A DNA stretch of 44,041 nt, taken from Gemmatimonadota bacterium (GTDB lineage: Bacteria > Gemmatimonadota > Gemmatimonadetes > Gemmatimonadales > GWC2-71-9). The position numbers were made by a program, and so were the translations under genes. The DNA is taken from the NCBI GenBank assembly GCA_003223395.1, contig QHUZ01000033.1, forward strand, positions 1 through 44,041, given 5' to 3'. The stretch's first letter is position 1. Each line of letters begins with the position of its first letter. Positions 1,502 to 41,038 of the stretch are shown piece by piece. The notes under the pieces are model-generated. The model worked only from the letters and a program-made list of their open reading frames with translations, searched no databases and was not told the origin of the DNA.

Positions 1502-2498
1502 GTGAATTCTTCCTCGCAACGCGCCCGCGCCCTAGCCGCAATCACCCTCCTCATTGCTGCATCAGCCTCGGCGCAGGGCTCGTCCGCGTCCGACAGTGCG
1601 ATGACGCTCAACCGCGCCGGAGACCGGGCAGGTGCAGCGGACTTGGCGCGTCGCTCCCTCGCCTCGACACAGCGCGGATCCCGCGCCGAAACCTGTCGCC
1701 TGCGGGTAATGCTCGCCTACGCGGAAATGCAGCTTGCCCATCGAGACACCGCCAACGCCCTGCTCTCCAAAGCCGATTCTACCTGCGAAGCCACCACCGC
1801 CAAGATGGAGATGGCACACGATCTGGCGTCGTTGCATCAAGACCTGGCCAGCCGCGCCGGGCCACGCGCGTCGCCGAGCGCCGATGGATCGTGGGCAACG
1901 GCCGATCCTCGCAATCTCGGTCTCGATGTTCTCGCGCTCGAACGGCATTTGCGTATCTGCGAGAGGACCGGGGCGGACGCCTGCCTGGTGGTGTATCGCG
2001 ATACGATCGTCCAAGAGTGGTATTCACCACGCTATCGCGAACCGATGTACGCGATGTCGTCCACAAAGTCGATACCCGCCGTGTTAGTTGGTATGCTCCT
2101 GGACGAGCGAAGGCTGGGGAGCGTCGACGACCGCGTCTGCACCTACATTCGCAGCTGGTGCGACGGTATTCGAGGTCATGTCACCGTACGCCATCTCCTC
2201 AGCATGACTTCAGGGCTTCCCCGGATGTACGCAAATGGTGTTGGTTACACGAGTGACAAGGACGAATTCGTCGAGGATTTGATTCCGACGAATGAGCCGG
2301 GCACTTCGTGGGCGTACAGCCATGAAGGGGCACAACGCCATGCACGTCCATCTCGATACCGATGTGCACATCCTGCCGGATCTCGCTTTGGTGGTGGTTC
2401 GAATGCAGACAAGGCCTTTTGCCGGCGTGCCTGAGGGGACGTACGAGCGCGAAGCTGTTCCTCTATATAGAGAATTCGTGGCGCGTGATGCTCGGTGA
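1502..2498 (+). pseudogene. serine hydrolase (beta-lactamase/PBP4-like), internally deleted and frameshifted
   Basis: A GTG start gives a signal peptide (LAAITLLIAASASAQG) and a helical, TPR-like region, then a beta-lactamase-related domain. That domain shows the nucleophile motif SSTK (SxxK) in AMSSTKSIP and the blocks HLLSMTSGLPR and WAYSHEGAQ, where families usually have YxN. Immediately after YSHEGAQ the frame diverges into Arg/Ala-rich nonsense ending at 2434. The expected C-terminal strand (HVHLDTDVHILPDLALVVVRMQ) resumes in another frame (about 2331-2498). The roughly 60-100 residues normally between these blocks, including the KTG-like motif, are missing. I infer a deletion that also shifted the frame; the product is almost certainly not an active hydrolase. 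Confidence 0.75.
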
Positions 2499-3078
2499 CA
2501 AGCGCGATCCGTTAGGCGGCCCCATTTCATTGGTGCGAAGGGTTGTGCTCGGCTCGGCACTAGCATGTGCAGGTACTGCGTGCGCGACCTCGCCGAGCTC
2601 GACCGGCCGGCACGTCTGGACGATGCAGTCGTCTGAGAGTGGCCGGGTCGTGCATCTCGACTCGGCCGTCGTCGGAGAATGGCAGATCTGTTTTTGGTAT
2701 GACAGCCTCACTCTCCAAACGCGTCACCCCCGTCCCAACCCGCACTGCGGTGCCTTACGCGTCACGGGGCAGGCGGCGCAGTTCGTGGCAGTCGACGCGT
2801 CGTTCTCTGGCTTCATCGTCCGCTTCTCACGATCTACTGTCCCGCCGTGCGCACGGACCGGCTTGCCGAACGAGAGACAAGGTACGCTCATCCCAGACTT
2901 TTACGGTGTGTCGGTCCATCTGGAGCTGCCGGCCTTCCAGTTCTGGTCTGGGGAATCTGATTACGTGGCAGCCACTGGCAGCGTGCGCGGTGACTCGCTC
3001 GTGGGTAAATGGATGAGCCGTGATAGTACATGCGCTGGTGATGGCGACGAATTGTTCGTGATGTCGCCGCGACATTAG
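2488..3078 (+). CDS. small predicted exported protein or lipoprotein
   Basis: About 196 residues from ATG 2488. GTG 2533 is an equally plausible start that puts the hydrophobic segment VVLGSALACAGTACATS at the N-terminus. That segment looks like a signal peptide with a cysteine suitable for lipidation, although neither candidate lipobox is ideal. The mature part has paired cysteines (ICFWYD, PHCGALRV, PPCARTG, STCAGDGDE) and beta-strand-like blocks, and ends in a block GDSLVGKWMSRDSTCAGDGDE recalling small lipocalin-like orphan lipoproteins. No family assignment is possible. The N-terminus overlaps the end of the decayed serine hydrolase by 11 bp if the first start is used. Confidence 0.45.
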   Translation: MLGDKRDPLGGPISLVRRVVLGSALACAGTACATSPSSTGRHVWTMQSSESGRVVHLDSAVVGEWQICFWYDSLTLQTRHPRPNPHCGALRVTGQAAQFVAVDASFSGFIVRFSRSTVPPCARTGLPNERQGTLIPDFYGVSVHLELPAFQFWSGESDYVAATGSVRGDSLVGKWMSRDSTCAGDGDELFVMSPRH

Positions 3079-3178
3079 AATGTCTGTAGGTGTTGACCTG
3101 TATGGGGGCATCGCCCTCTTCCGCTCTTCCGTCCGTCGCCCGATTTTGGGGCACCACTCAGGATCCCTCGGAGGTCCT

Positions 3179-3631
3179 ATGCGCATCCTCACCGTCCCGG
3201 CGTGCCTCGTGCTCATGGCCGCCCCACTGCACTCCCAGGCCACGCCAAGCGCGCGGCACTGGGGCCTGGCCCCCGCGGTCTTCCCCCCGGGCGCGAGGAT
3301 GGCCGTGGTGAGCGGTGACCCCGGTAAGGCGGGGCCGTTCACAGTCGAGCTGGCCTTCCCAGCCGGCTACAAGATCCCGCCGCACTTCCATCCCACCACC
3401 GAGACGGTCACGGTCAAGAAAGGGACCCTCCTCGTCGGCATGGGCGATACGTTCGATGCCTCGAAGACCAAGCCGATGCAGGCTGGCGACTCGGGGTCCA
3501 TCCCGGCCAACGCGCACCACTTCGCCGCCGCCAAGGGTGCGACCTTCATTACGGTGAGCGCGATGGGTCCATTTGCCATGACGTACGTCCACCCAGCCGA
3601 CCATCCTCAAAAGCCGGCCGCCAAGCCGTAG
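3179..3631 (+). CDS. secreted cupin-domain protein
   Basis: The start is fixed by a strong ribosome site (GGAGGT) 6 nt before ATG 3179 and by a clean signal peptide (MRILTVPACLVLMAAPLHSQA). The 150-residue product is a single cupin. Motif 1 is PPHFHPTTETVTVKKGTLL, giving two His and one Glu metal ligands; motif 2 includes PANAHHFAAAKGATFI with further His. Such proteins bind a divalent metal and act as small enzymes or sensors in the periplasm; the substrate is unknown. Similar cupins are often annotated as DUF4437 or general cupins. The gene appears monocistronic. Confidence 0.75.
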   Translation: MRILTVPACLVLMAAPLHSQATPSARHWGLAPAVFPPGARMAVVSGDPGKAGPFTVELAFPAGYKIPPHFHPTTETVTVKKGTLLVGMGDTFDASKTKPMQAGDSGSIPANAHHFAAAKGATFITVSAMGPFAMTYVHPADHPQKPAAKP

Positions 3632-3742
3632 CCTGTGTGCATCGAAGTCATGGTCAGAACCCGCGGGGCAGTCCGCATGATTCCGTAGAGGAGTGATAGA
3701 ATTCCATCTGGAGATCACTCGAATCTGGGGCAAGGACGCCAC

Positions 3743-3988
3743 ATGGAACCTGCTGTCTTTCTCGCTGCACTCCTCATATTCGTAGGGATCCCCGCATTCA
3801 CCGTCCTCAGGATCGCGCGGCTTCGTGCCGCTCGCGGTCAACCATCAGAAGACACGACCGCGCGGCTCGAGGAGCTCGAGAGCCGCGTACAAGAGCTCGA
3901 GCAACAGCAAGCCGAAGTTCAGGAACGGCTCGATTTTGCGGAACGTATGCTCAGCAAGGCACGGGAAGAGCGGCGCATTGGCGGCTAG
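3743..3988 (+). CDS. small single-pass membrane protein with coiled coil (PspB-like shape)
   Basis: An 81-residue protein: one N-terminal membrane span (residues 4-23), a short basic linker, then a strongly heptad-patterned helix (ARLEELESRVQELEQQQAEVQERLDFAERML). The size and order match phage-shock protein B and similar envelope-stress adaptors, but identity is too low to name it. AAGGA lies 7 nt before the ATG. The next gene probably starts at a TTG inside its last codons (3978), so the two are likely translationally coupled. Confidence 0.62.
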   Translation: MEPAVFLAALLIFVGIPAFTVLRIARLRAARGQPSEDTTARLEELESRVQELEQQQAEVQERLDFAERMLSKAREERRIGG

Positions 3989-9172: not shown

Positions 9173-10267
9173 CTATTTCAACGCCGCAACCAATCCGGCA
9201 TGATCCGACGGCCAGATCGGATAGGCCGGTCCGGGCAACCGATCCGCCGGTACGTCGCCGACGCGATCGATGCTCCCCTGCACGGTGCCGTCGTCGCGCG
9301 CAAACCCGCGCGTCCAGACGTAGTCGATCCGCTGATCGAAGTTCGCGACCTGATCCGACAGATCGGCAACGTGGCAGCAGGTCAACCCCGCGGCACCCAC
9401 ACCCGGATGTATCGCGGTCCACGTATCCGTATAGCCCGCGCCCGCGAGCACGCCGTACATCGGCGAACCAGGTCGGTCGTTCAAGTCGCCCATGAGCACG
9501 ACGCGCTCGCTCGAGCCGAGCGCCGCGACCATCTCTCCCACCTGCGCGGCGCGAATTTGCTCGAGCAATCCCGGCGGTGCACCCGCGAGATTGGCTTCGG
9601 TGTGCGCGCTCGCAAACGTGTACGACCGGCCGTCGATGGTCGTACGGGCAAACACCCAGCCGCGAATCAGTACGACGCCGTCCGCGACCTGCCCCAAATT
9701 GACCGAGAAGTCCTGGCCGCCGGCGTCGTTGAGCGTGACGCGATCCGCATCGATCAGCAGCGCATCATGATCCCTGAGGCGAACCAGCCCTGAGACCAGG
9801 TTGACGTTGATGTTGTCGGACGTGGCAGCGACCTGATAATGGAGACCGCGCGCCGCCAGCGCGGCCTGCAGCAGAGCCAGGAAGTCCTGGTCTACGACGA
9901 CCGGCACACCCAACGGGCGCAGATCGATATTGATCTGCGACACCTCCTGCAGTCCCACGGCGTGCGGCCGCGCCCGCGCGATCCGATCGGCGATCGCTTC
10001 GGCGCGCGCAGGAAAATCGGTCTTGCCGACCGTTTGGATCGCGAACAGCAGCGCCGGGAAATCATCGCCCGGATCGGGAGTGCCCAGGGCGCGGATCACG
10101 AGATCCACGTCGGCGCCGACGTAGAGGTTCTGCGTCATGACGCTGATCTCGCTCGAGGGGGCACTGACGCGCTGTTCGGTGAGCCAGTTCCCCGAGCCGA
10201 CCGGCTCCTGACACGCGGTAGCCAGCACGATCGCTGCAGCTGCGGGAAGATACAGGCGCTTCATCAT
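9173..10267 (-). CDS. endonuclease/exonuclease/phosphatase (EEP) fold lipoprotein
   Basis: A 364-residue protein with a lipoprotein signal (LAAAAIVLATAC-type, Cys near residue 19) and a complete-looking EEP hydrolase domain. Motifs in order: MTQNLYVG (Asn ligand), GLQEVSQI (Glu metal ligand), SAHTEAN (His), LMGDLNDRPGSP (Asp/Asn pair), FDQRIDYVW and WPSDHAGLVA (catalytic His with Asp). Such extracytoplasmic EEP proteins are nucleases, sphingomyelinase-like phosphodiesterases or phosphatases. A nuclease role would suit a cell that lives on nucleobases, but this is inference. It follows the FecR gene on the same strand after 74 nt and could be regulated by that sigma/FecR pair. Confidence 0.8.
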   Translation of the reverse strand: MMKRLYLPAAAAIVLATACQEPVGSGNWLTEQRVSAPSSEISVMTQNLYVGADVDLVIRALGTPDPGDDFPALLFAIQTVGKTDFPARAEAIADRIARARPHAVGLQEVSQINIDLRPLGVPVVVDQDFLALLQAALAARGLHYQVAATSDNINVNLVSGLVRLRDHDALLIDADRVTLNDAGGQDFSVNLGQVADGVVLIRGWVFARTTIDGRSYTFASAHTEANLAGAPPGLLEQIRAAQVGEMVAALGSSERVVLMGDLNDRPGSPMYGVLAGAGYTDTWTAIHPGVGAAGLTCCHVADLSDQVANFDQRIDYVWTRGFARDDGTVQGSIDRVGDVPADRLPGPAYPIWPSDHAGLVAALK

Positions 10268-10341: not shown

Positions 10342-11328
10342 TCAAGGTTTGGCCAGACCGGTGCGAGGATCGATCTCGCGCACGCCCCGCAATACCATCA
10401 TGCGGAAATGAATGCGCTGAATCTTCGTCCAATAGCCTTCCAGCGCGCGGGACTCGAGCGCGATCGCAGCACGCCGCGTGACGCCGGGCGGCGGCGGTAC
10501 GAGCGCCGCGAGCCGATCGTACACGACGCCGCGCAGCGCCGGATCGACGCGCTGCAGCACATGCCAGAGCGAGAGCGCATCCTGCGGACGCGCGAGCGCG
10601 AGCACCGTACGAATCGCGCGCGCGCGCGTGCCCCGCTGCGCGAAGTCGAACGCGATCAAGGCGCGCACGAACGGTGCCGGCGCGCCCTCCACATACGGAA
10701 TGCCGGGTCCCGTGGTGGGGCGGATTTGCATCAACGCGCCCAGGAGTACACGCGAAGCGTGAGACCCGGTCTGGAACTCGACTTCACCCGCGGTGACGTA
10801 CAGCAAGCCGTTGCCAAGGGAATCCGTTTCGAGCGTGTAGGCACAGCCGAGGTCGATCGCCGTGCCGGCCGGCGTCTCGACGAAAAAGAGGCGCGGCACC
10901 GCGTCGACTTTGGCGTCGATCGTGCCGCGCGCCAGCGCCAGGCGGTGCTCGTTCGCTTTGGCGACGACGAGCTGCACGCGCGTGTCCGGCCGCACTTCGA
11001 CCTGCCCGATCCGTCCGACGGCGATGAGCGCGCGCGAGGAGTCGTCGGTCTGCAGCCAGTCACCCACCCGCAGCCGGCCCGACGCCGCGAGCCGCGTCGT
11101 GCCGATCAGCGGCCGGCCCGCCAGTGCGGTGACGTCCCAGGCACTGCGCTCCGCCCGGGCGATCAGCAGAAACACGAGCACCGCGGCCAACGCGAGCGGC
11201 ACCCAGTACCAGCGCCGCCACGCTCCCGACCGTGCCAGCCGAGCCTCGATACCCGGCCACAAATCGCGTGGCGGCTCGATGCTCTTCGGCAGCCGGCTGA
11301 CGGCGTCGTGCAGCTCCTGTTCGTTCAT
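10342..11328 (-). CDS. FecR-type transmembrane protein, probable anti-sigma factor or sigma regulator
   Basis: A 328-residue protein with a short cytoplasmic N-terminus, one membrane span at about residues 42-60 (WVPLALAAVLVFLLIA) and a FecR-like periplasmic domain (about 85-200: LRVGDWLQTDDSSRALIAVGRIGQVEVRPDT, then LARGTIDAKV and FFVETPAGTAIDLGCAYTLE). The C-terminal 100 residues are helical and unassigned. It overlaps the ECF sigma gene by 4 nt (ATGA), so it very likely controls that sigma factor, in the manner of sigma/FecR surface-signalling pairs. No TonB receptor is in the window. Confidence 0.82.
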   Translation of the reverse strand: MNEQELHDAVSRLPKSIEPPRDLWPGIEARLARSGAWRRWYWVPLALAAVLVFLLIARAERSAWDVTALAGRPLIGTTRLAASGRLRVGDWLQTDDSSRALIAVGRIGQVEVRPDTRVQLVVAKANEHRLALARGTIDAKVDAVPRLFFVETPAGTAIDLGCAYTLETDSLGNGLLYVTAGEVEFQTGSHASRVLLGALMQIRPTTGPGIPYVEGAPAPFVRALIAFDFAQRGTRARAIRTVLALARPQDALSLWHVLQRVDPALRGVVYDRLAALVPPPPGVTRRAAIALESRALEGYWTKIQRIHFRMMVLRGVREIDPRTGLAKP

Positions 11329-11843
11329 CGCTCCAGCTTCTCCCGTAATAGTCGCCGGGCGCGAAACAGCTGCGCTTTGGACGTGCCCTCCGCTATGCCC
11401 ACAAGCTGCGCGATTTCGCCGTGACCGTAGCCCTCGATGTCATACAGCACGAAGACCTCCCGCGCTCCGTCCGGCAGCTCGGCGATCGCCCGCTCGAGGT
11501 CGATGTTCAGATGGAGGGGCGCCGCATGCTGCGCCCCTACCACCGTGTCCGGATCCTCCGCCGACATCACCCGCCGCTCCCGCCTGCCGGTCGTGCGGCG
11601 TTCGTTCAGGACCACATTGACGGCCAGGCGGTGCAGCCAGGAACTGAAGGCGCTATCACCGCGGAACGAGCGCAGCTTGTCCCACAGCCGCACGAACACA
11701 TCCTGGGTGCGCTCTTCGGCGTCGCGTCCGTCGCCCGTGAGACGGAGACACAGCGCGTAGACCCGGCCGGCGTGCTGGCGGTACAGCTCCCGAAAGGCGG
11801 TCTGGTCGCCAGCCTGGGCGCGGGCGACGAGATCGTCCGACAC
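11325..11843 (-). CDS. ECF-family RNA polymerase sigma factor
   Basis: A 172-residue group 4 sigma factor starting at GTG 11843. Region 2 covers about residues 20-90 (AFRELYRQHAGRVYALCLRLTGD, AEERTQDVFVRLWDKLRSFRG, FSSWLHRLAVNVVLNERR) and region 4 about 118-170 (AIAELPDGAREVFVLYDIEGYGHGEIAQLVGI, GTSKAQLFRARRLLREKL). The linker contains VGAQHAAPL, which is exactly a copy of a dispersed palindromic repeat read in frame (see 11513-11540). The FecR-like partner overlaps its stop codon by 4 nt. The target regulon is not visible. Confidence 0.9.
   Translation of the reverse strand: MSDDLVARAQAGDQTAFRELYRQHAGRVYALCLRLTGDGRDAEERTQDVFVRLWDKLRSFRGDSAFSSWLHRLAVNVVLNERRTTGRRERRVMSAEDPDTVVGAQHAAPLHLNIDLERAIAELPDGAREVFVLYDIEGYGHGEIAQLVGIAEGTSKAQLFRARRLLREKLER
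11513..11540. repeat. second copy of the 28-bp palindromic repeat, inside the sigma gene
   Basis: This matches the element at 6443-6470 at 26 of 28 positions and retains the central GCATGC. On the minus strand it is read in frame as V-G-A-Q-H-A-A-P-L in the linker between sigma regions 2 and 4. At 28 bp plus two flanking bases (30 nt, 10 codons) an insertion could preserve frame. Confidence 0.85.
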
Positions 11844-11897: not shown

Positions 11898-13664
11898 TCA
11901 CGGCAGCCGGACGCCGCCGAGCAACTGCCGCAGCCGCTGCTCGAGGTTTTTCTGGAGCTCGTCGATCCGCGTGCGCTGCTGGGCGACCTGGGCCTGCGCC
12001 TGCGCCTGGACCTCGTTCACGCGCACGCGCACCGGACCCACCTTAGGGTCGACCAGCGCGTCCACGCGATCGTGGACCTGCCGCTCCGCGGCGGCGACCT
12101 GTTCGCCGAGCACCGCGCGCAGGCGGGACGCGATCGCCTGATCGAGATTCGAGCGCACGGCGAGGTCAGGATGATGCAGCGCGCCCGAGAGCCGCGCCTC
12201 GACGTCGAGATTCGAGATGCCGGAGACGGCCTGCCAGATCAGACCGCCGATCGTGCTGTTCGTGAAACCGGAGTCGCGCGTCCACCGCACGTTCGTCGAG
12301 CGGATGGCGAACCGCGCCCGAATGGTGTCGCCGTTCAACGTGAAGCCGAGCTGCGAGGTGCCGGCGCCCGGATCGAGCGTGAGCGGCACGCCGGGGACGT
12401 CGAAAGCGGGCAGCGTGATGCCGCCGACACTTGCGCCCGCGGTGTCGACCGGAATGGCGCGCACATGATTGAGCGTCGCGCCCGCGGCGAGCTGCGGTCC
12501 GCTGGCCTGGAAGGCCGTAGGCCGGCCATACAATGCCGGATCGCTCGTCAACCCGGTCAACCGGCCGGCGTAGCGCTGCGGCTGTTCCGACGTCGGGTGC
12601 AGCAGGAACGAGAGCTCGGCAGTCCGGACCAGAAACGCCGGCAGCGCGCGCTCTTTGGGAAAACGCACGTCTTCGCCCGCGCGCCGCACGCGGCTCGGGC
12701 CGGTCGTGGCGCGGGGCAGCAGCCCGGGCGGCATGTAGCGACGCGCCAGCTGCACGTAGTAGAGGACGCGCTCGAACGGCTTGAGGGCGGCCGGCGCAAA
12801 CAGCGCGGCCCCGATCTCCGGTGCATCAAGGCTCGGCAACTTCAGGAGGCTGCGCGCGAACGCGTAGTCGCGCCGCCGCAAGCTGTCGAGCCCGGCGAGC
12901 CCCGCCTGCAGTTCGGCGACGCCCGTCCTGACGCCCCGGTCCAGCGCCGTCACGCGGTCGCGCGCGCGCTTGAGACGGTCGATCGCCTGACGCGCAGCGT
13001 TGAGGGCCGCGAGATCGGTGGCGCGCGCATGCCGCAGCGTCTCGAGCGCCGCGCTCGCGGAATCGAGCGTCGGAGCGAGACGCAGCGAATCGAACGCCGC
13101 CCGCCAGGCGCGGCGGGACGAGTCCGCCCGCGCGCCCAGCGCGGTGGCGGCGGGAATCGTGGACAGCCGCCGCGGATCGAGCGAGTCGATGCTGACCTTC
13201 CCGGTCGCTAGCTGCAGCACCGGGATCTGGAATTGGCTGGCCCAGTCGCGCGTCTCGGCGAGTACGCGACCCGCGATACCGTCGCCCGATGTCGCGGCCG
13301 CGCGGCCGTCCGTCGCGCGCGGCGTGCCGAAGCGGAGCCCGTTCGCCGCGATGCGATTGATGATGAGTTTCTCTTCGGTGAGCGGCACGACATCGATGTC
13401 CGCGACCAATTCGTCCGCCTGCAGGAGGTTCTTGAATGCCTCGTGCGGGCTGGCGATCGTGAGGCCACTGATCAGGACTTTCCCGTGGCGCAGGTCGAGA
13501 TGGAGCCGCTGGATCTCGACCTGTGCGCCCAGGATCTGCGTGCCCACCTTCTGCGATTCCCGCCGTGCGATCGTGTCGGCGAACAGCCACCACAGGATTC
13601 CGGCGATGACGAAGAGCACGAGCAACGGCCCGATCGCGCGCCAGCGGAAGATTTTGACCTTCAT
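11898..13664 (-). CDS. TIGR03545 family envelope protein (AsmA-like architecture)
   Basis: A 588-residue protein with one N-terminal membrane span (residues 10-27, PLLVLFVIAGILWWLFA). It then has an AsmA/chorein-like start (VEIQRLHLDLRHGKVLISGLTI, then ADELVADIDVVPLTEEKLIIN, RIAANGLRFGTPR). The middle (about 100-260) is long, helical and Arg/Ala-rich; a beta-rich region follows; the C-terminus (about 500-588) is a coiled coil (VNEVQAQAQAQVAQQRTRIDELQKNLEQRL). The length and partner match the uncharacterised TIGR03545 family. The ATG at 13664 overlaps the stop of the TIGR03546 gene (4 nt), so they are translationally coupled. A role in lipid movement between membranes is inference from the AsmA-like pattern. 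Confidence 0.8.
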   Translation of the reverse strand: MKVKIFRWRAIGPLLVLFVIAGILWWLFADTIARRESQKVGTQILGAQVEIQRLHLDLRHGKVLISGLTIASPHEAFKNLLQADELVADIDVVPLTEEKLIINRIAANGLRFGTPRATDGRAAATSGDGIAGRVLAETRDWASQFQIPVLQLATGKVSIDSLDPRRLSTIPAATALGARADSSRRAWRAAFDSLRLAPTLDSASAALETLRHARATDLAALNAARQAIDRLKRARDRVTALDRGVRTGVAELQAGLAGLDSLRRRDYAFARSLLKLPSLDAPEIGAALFAPAALKPFERVLYYVQLARRYMPPGLLPRATTGPSRVRRAGEDVRFPKERALPAFLVRTAELSFLLHPTSEQPQRYAGRLTGLTSDPALYGRPTAFQASGPQLAAGATLNHVRAIPVDTAGASVGGITLPAFDVPGVPLTLDPGAGTSQLGFTLNGDTIRARFAIRSTNVRWTRDSGFTNSTIGGLIWQAVSGISNLDVEARLSGALHHPDLAVRSNLDQAIASRLRAVLGEQVAAAERQVHDRVDALVDPKVGPVRVRVNEVQAQAQAQVAQQRTRIDELQKNLEQRLRQLLGGVRLP

Positions 13665-14176
13665 GGCCGGAACATCTTGTAGACGTTGTAGGCCTTGGAC
13701 GCCGTCAAGGCGCGATAGAACTTCGACTGTCGCACGCGCTCGCCGACGGTCACGCGATAGCGGACCACCGCCCAGCGTGTGAGCAAGAAGAGCGGCACCG
13801 CAAAGAGCAGGGCGAACACGACGCTGCCGAGCACGACGGTGTTGTTGAAGTTGGTGAGCGGGACGATCGGCGTGTTGTAGAGGGACGTCCACAGGCCGCG
13901 CAGCGATTCGGCCAGAAGCAGCTGGTGGCCGATCCAGTCGAATAGCGGATCGAGCAGGAAACCAATCGGGACAAACAGCGCCCAGCCGAGCATGCCGGCG
14001 GCGAACGACACGTTCAGCAACACCAGCGCCGCAAAGATGACCGCGTTGTGGAGATTCAGGAGCGGCGTCAGGCCGAGACAGGAACCCAGCACGATTCCCG
14101 CGGCGAGCTGCCCCTCCGTGCCCTCGGAGTGCAGCGCGCCGAACAGCGATTGGATCAGCTTGATCAATGCGAACAT
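13661..14176 (-). CDS. TIGR03546 family membrane protein (DUF2062-like)
   Basis: A 171-residue inner-membrane protein with about four spans. Its start (FALIKLIQSLFGALHSEGTEGQLAAGIVLG) and the block GLTPLLNLHNAVIFAALVLLNVSFAAG fit the TIGR03546 family, which is typically encoded next to TIGR03545. Its first codons overlap the 3' end of uraD by 13 nt and its stop overlaps the TIGR03545 start by 4 nt. The continuous overlaps from uraH to TIGR03545 suggest one transcript and coupled translation. The function is unknown; a membrane platform for the AsmA-like partner is a reasonable hypothesis. Confidence 0.82.
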   Translation of the reverse strand: MFALIKLIQSLFGALHSEGTEGQLAAGIVLGSCLGLTPLLNLHNAVIFAALVLLNVSFAAGMLGWALFVPIGFLLDPLFDWIGHQLLLAESLRGLWTSLYNTPIVPLTNFNNTVVLGSVVFALLFAVPLFLLTRWAVVRYRVTVGERVRQSKFYRALTASKAYNVYKMFRP

Positions 14177-14625
14177 GGGCGTTTCAGCCGGTCCTCAGCA
14201 ATCGCCAGAATCTCCCGCAGCGCTGTGCGCCGCTCCTCCTCGCGCGAGCCCCGCAGCCGCGCCTCGAGGATCGGCACGATGGCCTCTTTCGATCGCCGGT
14301 TGACGAAGACGACAAAGCGAAACCCGAACTTCTGCTCGTATGCTTCGTTGAGCGTCGCCAGGCGTTTCAGGACCTCCGGCGGCGTCGTGTCGCGGTCGTA
14401 GCCCTGCTCCTTGAAAGACAGCGCCGACACCTTGTCCCGACGTTCGCCGATGCGCGGATGCGCATTGATGACAGCGATCTGCTCTGCTTCCGAGAGTTCC
14501 TTCACGATGGCCCGGGCGCGTGCGAGTATCGCGGCACCGCTGGGGAACGGCTCCTCCGCGCGAAGCCGATCCAACAATGGACCCGCGTGCTCGAATAGGT
14601 TCAACTGCCTCGGTAGCTCGAGCAC
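14164..14625 (-). CDS. uraD: 2-oxo-4-hydroxy-4-carboxy-5-ureidoimidazoline (OHCU) decarboxylase
   Basis: Catalyses the third step of urate breakdown, decarboxylating OHCU to S-allantoin in the cytosol. The protein (153 residues from GTG 14625) shows the family block INAHPRIGERRDKVSALSFKEQG, where the His and Arg belong to the active site, followed by NEAYEQKFGFRFVVFVNRRSKEAIVPILEARL. A TTG at 14604, with GAGG just upstream and a TTGA overlap with the uraH stop, is an alternative start; GTG 14625 overlaps uraH by 25 nt. The next gene (TIGR03546) starts 13 nt inside its 3' end. No uricase is in the window, so that step must be encoded elsewhere or replaced by an unrelated enzyme. Confidence 0.88.
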   Translation of the reverse strand: MLELPRQLNLFEHAGPLLDRLRAEEPFPSGAAILARARAIVKELSEAEQIAVINAHPRIGERRDKVSALSFKEQGYDRDTTPPEVLKRLATLNEAYEQKFGFRFVVFVNRRSKEAIVPILEARLRGSREEERRTALREILAIAEDRLKRPCSH

Positions 14626-14951
14626 GCAAACGGTGACATCAAGAGGGGGATGTGGTAGCGGCGGTTGGTATCGGTGATCTCGAAGTCCAGCGTCGCGCGC
14701 TGGAGGAACGCCGCGGTCCCTTTCTTCTTATAGTAGGCGCCCACGTCGAATGACAGCCGGTACGTCCCCGCGGTCAGAGCTCCGTCGCCCAGTGCCCCGA
14801 TTCGTCCGTCCGCATCCGTCTCTCGGGTTCCCTGCGATACGGGCTCCTTGCCATCGAGGCGCCACAGCGTCACCGCGACGCCGGCGGCGGGCTCGCCGCG
14901 CGTGGTATCGAGGACGTGCGTCGAAATCGTCGGACGGTTAGTGTTGGACAT
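14601..14951 (-). CDS. uraH: 5-hydroxyisourate hydrolase (transthyretin-like)
   Basis: Hydrolyses 5-hydroxyisourate to OHCU, the second step after urate oxidation. The 116-residue protein has the diagnostic N-terminal block ISTHVLDTTRGEPAAGV (catalytic His) and ends in the signature tetrapeptide YRGS. There is no signal peptide, so it is cytoplasmic. Its ATG (14951-14949) shares the CATG tetranucleotide with the ATG (14950) of the divergent DUF3830 gene, so there is no intergenic promoter space at all. The downstream gene is uraD, overlapping its 3' end. Confidence 0.9.
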   Translation of the reverse strand: MSNTNRPTISTHVLDTTRGEPAAGVAVTLWRLDGKEPVSQGTRETDADGRIGALGDGALTAGTYRLSFDVGAYYKKKGTAAFLQRATLDFEITDTNRRYHIPLLMSPFACSSYRGS

Positions 14952-15360
14952 GCTCAAGATCCGCGTGGGAAGCCTGACGTTTACGGCACGGCTGGAAGAG
15001 AACGCCGCACCCAAAACGGTGGCCGTGATTCGCAAAATGCTGCCGCTCAAGTCCAAGATAGTCCACTGCCGCTGGAGCGGCGAGTCGACGTGGATTCCCA
15101 TGGGCGAGCGCAAACTTGGACTCGATTTCGAGAACCATACCAGCCATCCCGCCCCCGGCATGCTTCTCCTGTACCCGGGAGGAATTAGCGAGACCGAACT
15201 GCTCTTCCCTTATGGATCCACGATGTTCGCAAGCAAAGTGGGACAACTGGCAGGAAATCATTTCGCGACGATCACTCAGGGGCAGGAACAACTTCCCGAG
15301 ATCGGCAGGCTCACGCTGTGGGAGGGAGCGCAGGAGATCGTCATAGAAGAAGTGCGGTGA
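14950..15360 (+). CDS. DUF3830 (cyclophilin-like) protein
   Basis: A 136-residue protein with the compact beta-barrel pattern of DUF3830/TM1367-like cyclophilin folds: LTFTARLEENAAPKTVAVIRKMLPLKSKIVHCRWSG, WIPMGE, a conserved PAPGMLLLYPGG and a terminal GRLTLWEGAQEIVIEE. The biochemical role of the family is not established. Here it is the first gene of an allantoin operon, and its TGA overlaps the allantoinase GTG (GTGA). A role linked to ureide hydrolysis, such as a chaperone or racemase-like helper, is inference. ATG 14950 shares CATG with the uraH start; GTG 14941 is an alternative start. Confidence 0.78.
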   Translation: MLKIRVGSLTFTARLEENAAPKTVAVIRKMLPLKSKIVHCRWSGESTWIPMGERKLGLDFENHTSHPAPGMLLLYPGGISETELLFPYGSTMFASKVGQLAGNHFATITQGQEQLPEIGRLTLWEGAQEIVIEEVR

Positions 15361-36323: not shown

Positions 36324-40402
<4,079 letters not shown>

Positions 40403-40406
<4 letters not shown>

Positions 40407-41038
40407 CGCACCGCGACGCCTCGGACCAGGAGTCCCGTCGTTGAGACGCGCACCTCGTGGGTGGCGCCACCCGGCGCTGTTGCCCCAATGAATGTCGCCG
40501 AACCGTACTCGGCATCCACGAACGGCCGCAGGATCCAGTAGCGGCGCGCCAGATCGAACGCGTCGAACGGCTTGTTCGCGGCCAGCGAATACACTGTGCG
40601 CTCCTTCGTCTGTTCGTCGGTGAGCGCCTGATACCGTCCCGCAATACGATCGAGCTCATACACCGTTTCGAGGCCGAGCAGCGTCCCGATCGGCCGCCAC
40701 TTCAGGACGTGTGCATCGACATACACGGCGTCGCCGGCAAGATCGAACATGTGCAGGCTGCTATCGGGTAACGTCACGGTCGCGCGGAACCGCTGCTTGC
40801 CGAGCGGCTCGGTCTTGATCGTCGCCGCGAGTGCCTCCTGCGTGAACGCCCGATACCCGCGAATCCCGACCGTAATCGCGCCGAGCAGCATGCTGGACGT
40901 GAGGAATAGCGCCGCCGCAAGAAAGCCAACGAGGGAGCTTAGCCGGCGGCGGTTCCGCCACGCGGATGCCGAGACGTAGATCAGCGCCACCGCGAGAAGC
41001 GTGAACGCGACCATGACCAGTCGCACAATGCCAGTCAT
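40403..41038 (-). CDS. two-helix membrane protein with extracytoplasmic domain, unknown function
   Basis: A 211-residue protein with two N-terminal membrane spans (about residues 5-23 and 35-57) and a soluble domain of about 150 residues (LGKQRFRATVTLPDSSLHMFDLAGDAVYVDAHVLKWRPIGTLLG and a final EVRVSTTGLLVRG). Similar proteins are sometimes labelled cation/multidrug efflux pump, which does not fit a two-helix protein. Its TAA and the TAG of the CheB/CheR gene overlap within TTAG. Upstream, TAACGT lies 7 nt before the ATG with no ribosome site, a possible leaderless start. Confidence 0.6.

Follow-up and report, generated by a model that had tools for sequence, protein, structure and literature searches.

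In the 44,041-nucleotide (nt) window analysed here (the whole stretch of Gemmatimonadota contig QHUZ01000033.1 given above), two genes for envelope proteins of the TIGR03546 and TIGR03545 families stand at the end of an overlapping chain that begins with uraH and uraD, raising the question of why such proteins should be made together with cytosolic ureide enzymes. Based on the results described below, the contact between the pair and uraHD is an accident of local gene order that reflects no shared function. We consider it somewhat probable that TIGR03546 and TIGR03545 together make up an autonomous inner-membrane complex of two components, a membrane base and a short AsmA-like lipid-handling protein, in which the purine genes are uninvolved.

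The TIGR03546-TIGR03545 pair and its contact with uraHD

An earlier note on this DNA described an overlapping chain uraH-uraD-TIGR03546-TIGR03545 at positions 11898-14951, and the reading frames bear this out. uraH and uraD overlap by 25 nt with a GTG start for uraD or by 4 nt (TTGA) with a TTG start, uraD and TIGR03546 overlap by 13 nt, and TIGR03546 and TIGR03545 overlap by 4 nt (ATGA). Both envelope proteins score above the curated NCBIfam cut-offs of their families (136.3 versus 79.45 bits for TIGR03546 and 187.1 versus 173.35 bits for TIGR03545), and the TIGR03545 family is single-copy in this genome.

The conservation of the pair was analyzed in 75 named loci that were retrieved with the TIGR03546 profile. 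With TIGR03546 alone as the search query, TIGR03545 was found directly after it in 72 of the 72 loci that hold both genes, and in the remaining 3 the contig stops at TIGR03546. The exact 4-nt overlap is present in 27 of 62 measurable pairs, and nearly all of the others lie within about 15 nt. These loci span about ten phylum-level groups, mostly diderm (Gemmatimonadota, Zixiibacteriota, Balneolota, Ignavibacteriota, Thermodesulfobacteriota, Nitrospirota, Planctomycetota, and Pseudomonadota, plus metagenome-assembled genomes labelled FCB group and Bacillota). In four loci, a single open reading frame matches both families (L097, 737 amino acids (aa); L120, 760 aa; L130, 766 aa; L133, 765 aa). 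On the TIGR03545 tree, L130 and L133 form one clade and L097 and L120 fall elsewhere, alongside L080 and L084, which are unfused; fusion has therefore occurred at least twice. Gene fusion is good evidence for two proteins acting in one complex. The adjacency and the fusions together support TIGR03546 as the obligate membrane partner of TIGR03545, in line with the membrane base proposed in the earlier note.

No further gene was seen to adjoin the pair universally. The sigma factor and FecR-like neighbours found in the window are restricted to one clade of Gemmatimonadota, and other clades have different neighbours, such as a gene for NAD(P) transhydrogenase subunit alpha (read by eye). In L074, TIGR03545 lacks about residues 88-153, and in L071 and L092 it is split by a frameshift; each of these may be an assembly error or decay.

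The same-strand overlapping genes in the window and in several congeners, and the large purine and pyrimidine breakdown island that makes up the rest of the window, might suggest that the pair acts in ureide catabolism, such as by export or by anchoring purine breakdown to the envelope, and that this explains a co-translation with uraHD. We regard this as highly improbable when the gene order is followed in 41 related genomes, ten of which belong to the window's genus. uraD is present in all ten genomes of that genus. TIGR03545 also occurs in nine genomes of other genera, none with uraD near the pair: seven (G013, G014, G015, G022, G025, G026, and G034) lack uraD entirely, and in G019 and G020 the two genes are on different contigs. 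Among the 75 named loci, uraHD adjoins the pair only in those of the window's genus, so the uraHD-TIGR03546-TIGR03545 order that the earlier note had asked to be searched for is confined to one genus and gives no conserved linkage that would place uraHD in an operon with the pair. Within the genus, the spacing between uraD and TIGR03546 ranges from a 22-nt overlap (G004) through 0 nt (G002 and G009) to a 13-nt gap (G001). In G003 and G008 an amidase gene (PF01425) lies between the two, and in G007 that amidase spans two contig ends, one bearing uraD and the other TIGR03546. With an order limited to one genus, an overlap of varying length, and an intervening amidase in three congeners, the translational coupling to uraHD that the overlaps had suggested is not supported, and functional coupling was rejected. 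This removes the puzzle of co-production with ureide enzymes, as only local gene order links them to the pair.

The history of this contact can be approached through L080, a locus of the sister lineage of the window's genus on the TIGR03545 tree, in which a 73% identical amidase lies directly before TIGR03546 and no uraHD is found beside the pair. The simplest reading, by parsimony, is that the older order was amidase-TIGR03546-TIGR03545-sigma-FecR, that the purine genes came to lie upstream of it within this genus, and that some species, including that of the window, lost the amidase, which brought uraD into contact with TIGR03546.

Architecture of the two proteins

An AlphaFold2 model of TIGR03545 (63 sequences; predicted local distance difference test (pLDDT) 86.8; predicted template modelling score (pTM) 0.68) places a membrane helix before a first block of beta strands, which is followed by a helical insert, a second beta block, and a long C-terminal helix (Table 1). 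The N-terminal membrane anchor, the AsmA-like start, and the C-terminal coiled coil that the earlier note had read from the sequence are thus all recovered, the first as helix 8-45, the second as strands 49-112, and the third as helix 506-581. Residues 8-122 match DUF748 (E 3.9e-7). At the level of the family, DUF748 matches 57 of 63 TIGR03545 members and AsmA matches 19 of 63, with every match falling on the membrane helix and the first strands. The AsmA gathering score is exceeded by L131 and L142, and that of DUF748 by L134. By sequence, therefore, the TIGR03545 family carries the N-terminal module of the AsmA-like superfamily, a membrane helix followed by an AsmA/DUF748 beta module. DUF748 is counted in the AsmA-like clan, whose proteins are implicated in phospholipid transport (PMC10900882), and the N-termini of AsmA and TamB are homologous to Chorein-N lipid transfer domains (PMC6791001).

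The two beta blocks of the model hold about 15 strands. Hydrophobicity alternates along the strands with a value of 0.32, compared with 0.20 +/- 0.04 in helix windows, and this alternation is strong in the second block. When the model was compared with solved structures by VIA-align, most matches were helical bundles that cover the helical parts only, the insert and C-terminal helix together matching three-helix bundles at Z 12.9. Among the matches listed, the sole one that spans both beta blocks at length is the bridge-like lipid transfer protein LPD-3 (9cap; Z 6.9, 248 aligned residues, root-mean-square deviation 9.5 A), in which model residues 29-512 align with residues 43-510 of the chain. 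At about 4.8 A for each of about 15 strands, a continuous groove in the modelled protein would be near 70 A long and would probably not reach across the periplasm by itself, so the description of TIGR03545 as periplasm-spanning is not supported in the sense of a continuous groove; helices of 56 and 76 residues in the model could extend its reach. The earlier note had named, as grounds for giving up its proposal, a fold lacking an AsmA-type groove together with a gene order unique to this genome. This combination was not found as worded, and the order, which is unique to the genus, comes close to its second half.

TIGR03546 belongs to the DUF2062 family, which the window protein matches with 31.4 bits (Pfam gathering score 27.4) and which matches 67 of 67 TIGR03546 members at E 0.01. 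A second DUF2062 match in the genome, in a different 801-aa protein (C59), is below the cut-off and probably due to chance. The TIGR03546 model (pLDDT 90) consists only of helices, which break at TPLLN and at TNFNN; among the VIA-align matches listed for it, none exceeds Z 3.8. When the profiles of the two halves were compared by hhalign, they aligned exactly PLLNLHNAVIFA with PLTNFNNTVVLG (P 0.019; 1 of 300 column shuffles scored as high), which hints, suggestively only, at a two-fold pseudo-symmetric membrane protein with an internal repeat. Two-fold pseudo-symmetry is common in transporters and scramblases. The mean net charge is +6.9 for the TIGR03546 C-tail and +3.0 for the TIGR03545 N-terminus; as both are positive, both termini should be cytoplasmic, in agreement with the junction point of the natural fusions.

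Proposed lipid handling and its alternatives

In the mechanism that we favour, TIGR03546 would be a DUF2062-type polytopic base with two pseudo-repeated halves, and TIGR03545 would place a membrane helix and chorein-N/AsmA-like strands ahead of its helical insert, second beta block, and long C-terminal helix. The two proteins would be made together, in some species as one polypeptide, and would form a physical complex in the window species. The base could allow lipid, by movement within the inner membrane or across it, to reach the foot of the beta groove, where TIGR03545 would receive it and present it towards the periplasm or outer membrane, its helices acting as a stalk or lid. The purine genes would be a genus-specific neighbour that has no part in this mechanism. 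DUF2062 proteins in other settings also have ties to lipid and the envelope, as in the glycosyltransferase fusion of L193 described below, in favour of this reading.

A bolder form of this proposal is a two-part inner-membrane lipid gateway, in which the DUF2062 protein would use two symmetric re-entrant halves to scramble or flip lipid directly into the AsmA-like groove, as a bacterial counterpart of a scramblase under a bridge-like lipid transfer protein, and the natural fusions would mark one unit. We put this forward tentatively, as possible rather than probable. No relation of TIGR03546 to DedA was found: there was no signal in a comparison with E. coli DedA (E 0.35), and the Pfam VTT domain was matched by none of the TIGR03546 members; a scramblase role is therefore argued only from the architecture of TIGR03546 and the company it keeps.

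Besides the missing DedA signal, several observations weigh against the proposed lipid-handling complex. The window TIGR03545 is under the DUF748 gathering score (28.9 versus 50), a profile comparison limited to E. coli AsmA gives only a weak signal (E 0.0087, probability 4.6%), and the first four strands alternate weakly in hydrophobicity (0.06-0.19). Foldseek searches with the TIGR03545 and TIGR03546 models listed no solved relative with E < 0.001 for either protein. The LPD-3 match has a Z score below 8, a range in which a common or chance arrangement can occur, and it therefore supports a bridge-like reading without proving it. The claim that TIGR03545 is a lipid-transfer-type protein draws on its AsmA-like start and on an LPD-3 match at modest Z, whereas the binding and transfer of lipid are steps that we infer. 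In addition, the genome encodes TamB (137.7 bits, 1468-codon frame), so the pair would be one of at least two AsmA-type systems in this genome.

TamB is reported to have a role in outer-membrane protein assembly (PMC11014939), and with this precedent TIGR03545 could be AsmA-like and yet function in such assembly or in envelope tethering, as a TamB-like scaffold or coiled-coil strut, instead of in lipid transport. Its long helical parts (residues 130-310 and 506-581) and short beta part would suit this role. We nevertheless think it unlikely, as we noticed no gene for an Omp85-type partner next to the pair in the inspected loci and the constant partner is a polytopic inner-membrane protein.

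It also seems quite unlikely that the cargo is an isoprenoid-linked or glycolipid precursor and not bulk phospholipid, with DUF2062 handling lipid-linked sugars and TIGR03545 receiving them. This idea draws on L193, from a Desulfobulbales genome, in which one protein joins DUF2062 to a GT2 glycosyltransferase and a gene of the lipid A acyltransferase family comes after it (1718-3851), and on L191, where ABC-transporter genes, among them one for an FtsX/MacB-type permease (LolC/E-like), are found ~2 kb from a gamma-proteobacterial DUF2062 gene. However, these DUF2062 proteins are distant members and not TIGR03546, and no glycosyltransferase gene recurs beside the pair.

The proposed membrane base with its AsmA-like partner bears on the question of how lipids exit the inner membrane and enter AsmA-like grooves. 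A dedicated inner-membrane partner for an AsmA-like protein is not described in the AsmA-like literature examined, no literature was found on DUF2062 together with AsmA, and in the open-access literature searched only one paper, on ortholog clustering, names TIGR03545 and TIGR03546. With its polytopic protein inseparable from the AsmA-like one, and in some loci fused to it, the pair offers a compact test system for this step.

The wider window and comparison with known systems

The features of the four-gene chain, its downstream neighbours, and the segments of the two envelope proteins are collected in Table 1.

Table 1. Coordinates of the genes and protein segments discussed (residues are those of the encoded protein)
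Feature	Coordinates	Strand	Evidence or remark
uraH (5-hydroxyisourate hydrolase)	14601..14951	-	TIGR02962 117 bits, cut-off 87.45; neighbour outside module
uraD (2-oxo-4-hydroxy-4-carboxy-5-ureidoimidazoline (OHCU) decarboxylase)	14164..14625	-	GTG start at 14625; PF09349 132 bits; neighbour outside module
TIGR03546 / DUF2062 polytopic membrane protein, 171 aa	13661..14176	-	136.3 bits
Repeat motif 1, PLLNLHNAVIFA, residues 38-49	14030..14065	-	At helix break; model and profile comparison of halves
Repeat motif 2, PLTNFNNTVVLG, residues 106-117	13826..13861	-	At helix break; model and profile comparison of halves
TIGR03545 protein with AsmA-like N-terminal module, 588 aa (segments in the rows below)	11898..13664	-	
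Membrane-anchor helix, residues 8-45	13530..13643	-	AlphaFold2 model; cationic N-terminus
First beta block, four strands, residues 49-112	13329..13520	-	Model; AsmA/DUF748 N-terminal homology
Helical insert, residues 130-310	12735..13277	-	Model; VIA three-helix-bundle match jointly with C-terminal helix
Second beta block, residues 344-505, about 11 strands	12150..12635	-	Model, VIA match, hydrophobicity alternation
C-terminal helix, residues 506-581 (76 residues)	11922..12149	-	AlphaFold2 model
Extracytoplasmic function (ECF) sigma factor	11325..11843	-	54 nt downstream of TIGR03545; neighbour common to five loci of other genera
FecR-like putative anti-sigma factor	10342..11328	-	PF04773 22.7 bits, just below cut-off 24

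Downstream of the sigma factor and FecR-like genes, positions 9173-10267 encode a likely lipoprotein with an endonuclease/exonuclease/phosphatase domain that is kept in several congeners. At the other end of the chain, uraH (- strand) and a divergent DUF3830 gene (+ strand) point away from a single CATG (14949-14952) in which their start codons overlap, so that no intergenic promoter region lies between them; this arrangement is kept in nearly all congeners examined. The purine/pyrimidine and glyoxylate island extends over positions 5135-34102 and includes genes for xanthine dehydrogenase subunits, uraHD, allantoinase, an allantoate deiminase-type hydrolase, malate synthase, isocitrate lyase, a purine/allantoin permease, an amidohydrolase, and a dihydroorotate/dihydropyrimidine dehydrogenase-like protein. 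Positions 36408-40406 encode one 1332-aa protein that combines CheB, CheR, several PAS domains, a histidine kinase, and a response regulator. A gene for a small membrane-type protein immediately precedes the pair in L084 and precedes the amidase and the pair in L080; the window has a homologue of it (52% identity) at 40415-41038, ~26 kb from the pair.

Compared with the bridge-like proteins VPS13, ATG2, and LPD-3/BLTP1, TIGR03545 is alike in that the N-terminal part of LPD-3 matches both of its beta blocks and, by analogy, in the notion that a groove protein sits on a partner embedded in the membrane. It differs in being far shorter and bacterial, and the structural score is weak; for TIGR03546, no DedA relation was found and scramblase activity is putative. 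Within DUF2062 (PF09835), which matches all 67 members of TIGR03546, the latter forms a subfamily of its own that is always followed by TIGR03545, whereas DUF2062 proteins outside it occur alone or fused to a glycosyltransferase.

The closest comparison is with the AsmA-like proteins (AsmA PF05170, DUF748 PF05359, YhdP, TamB, and YdbH), whose N-terminal membrane helix and first strands match most TIGR03545 members. In length, TIGR03545 (588 aa) resembles E. coli AsmA (617 aa), and PA2708 is likewise a small AsmA-like protein that is thought too short to span the periplasm (PMC10900882). TIGR03545 differs from these proteins in a beta part split by a 180-residue helical insert, in a 76-residue C-terminal helix at its end, and in an obligate polytopic partner gene to which it is sometimes fused. 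From these results, we conclude that the TIGR03546-TIGR03545 pair represents a real variant of AsmA-like systems, widespread and apparently unstudied, that has an inseparable membrane partner.

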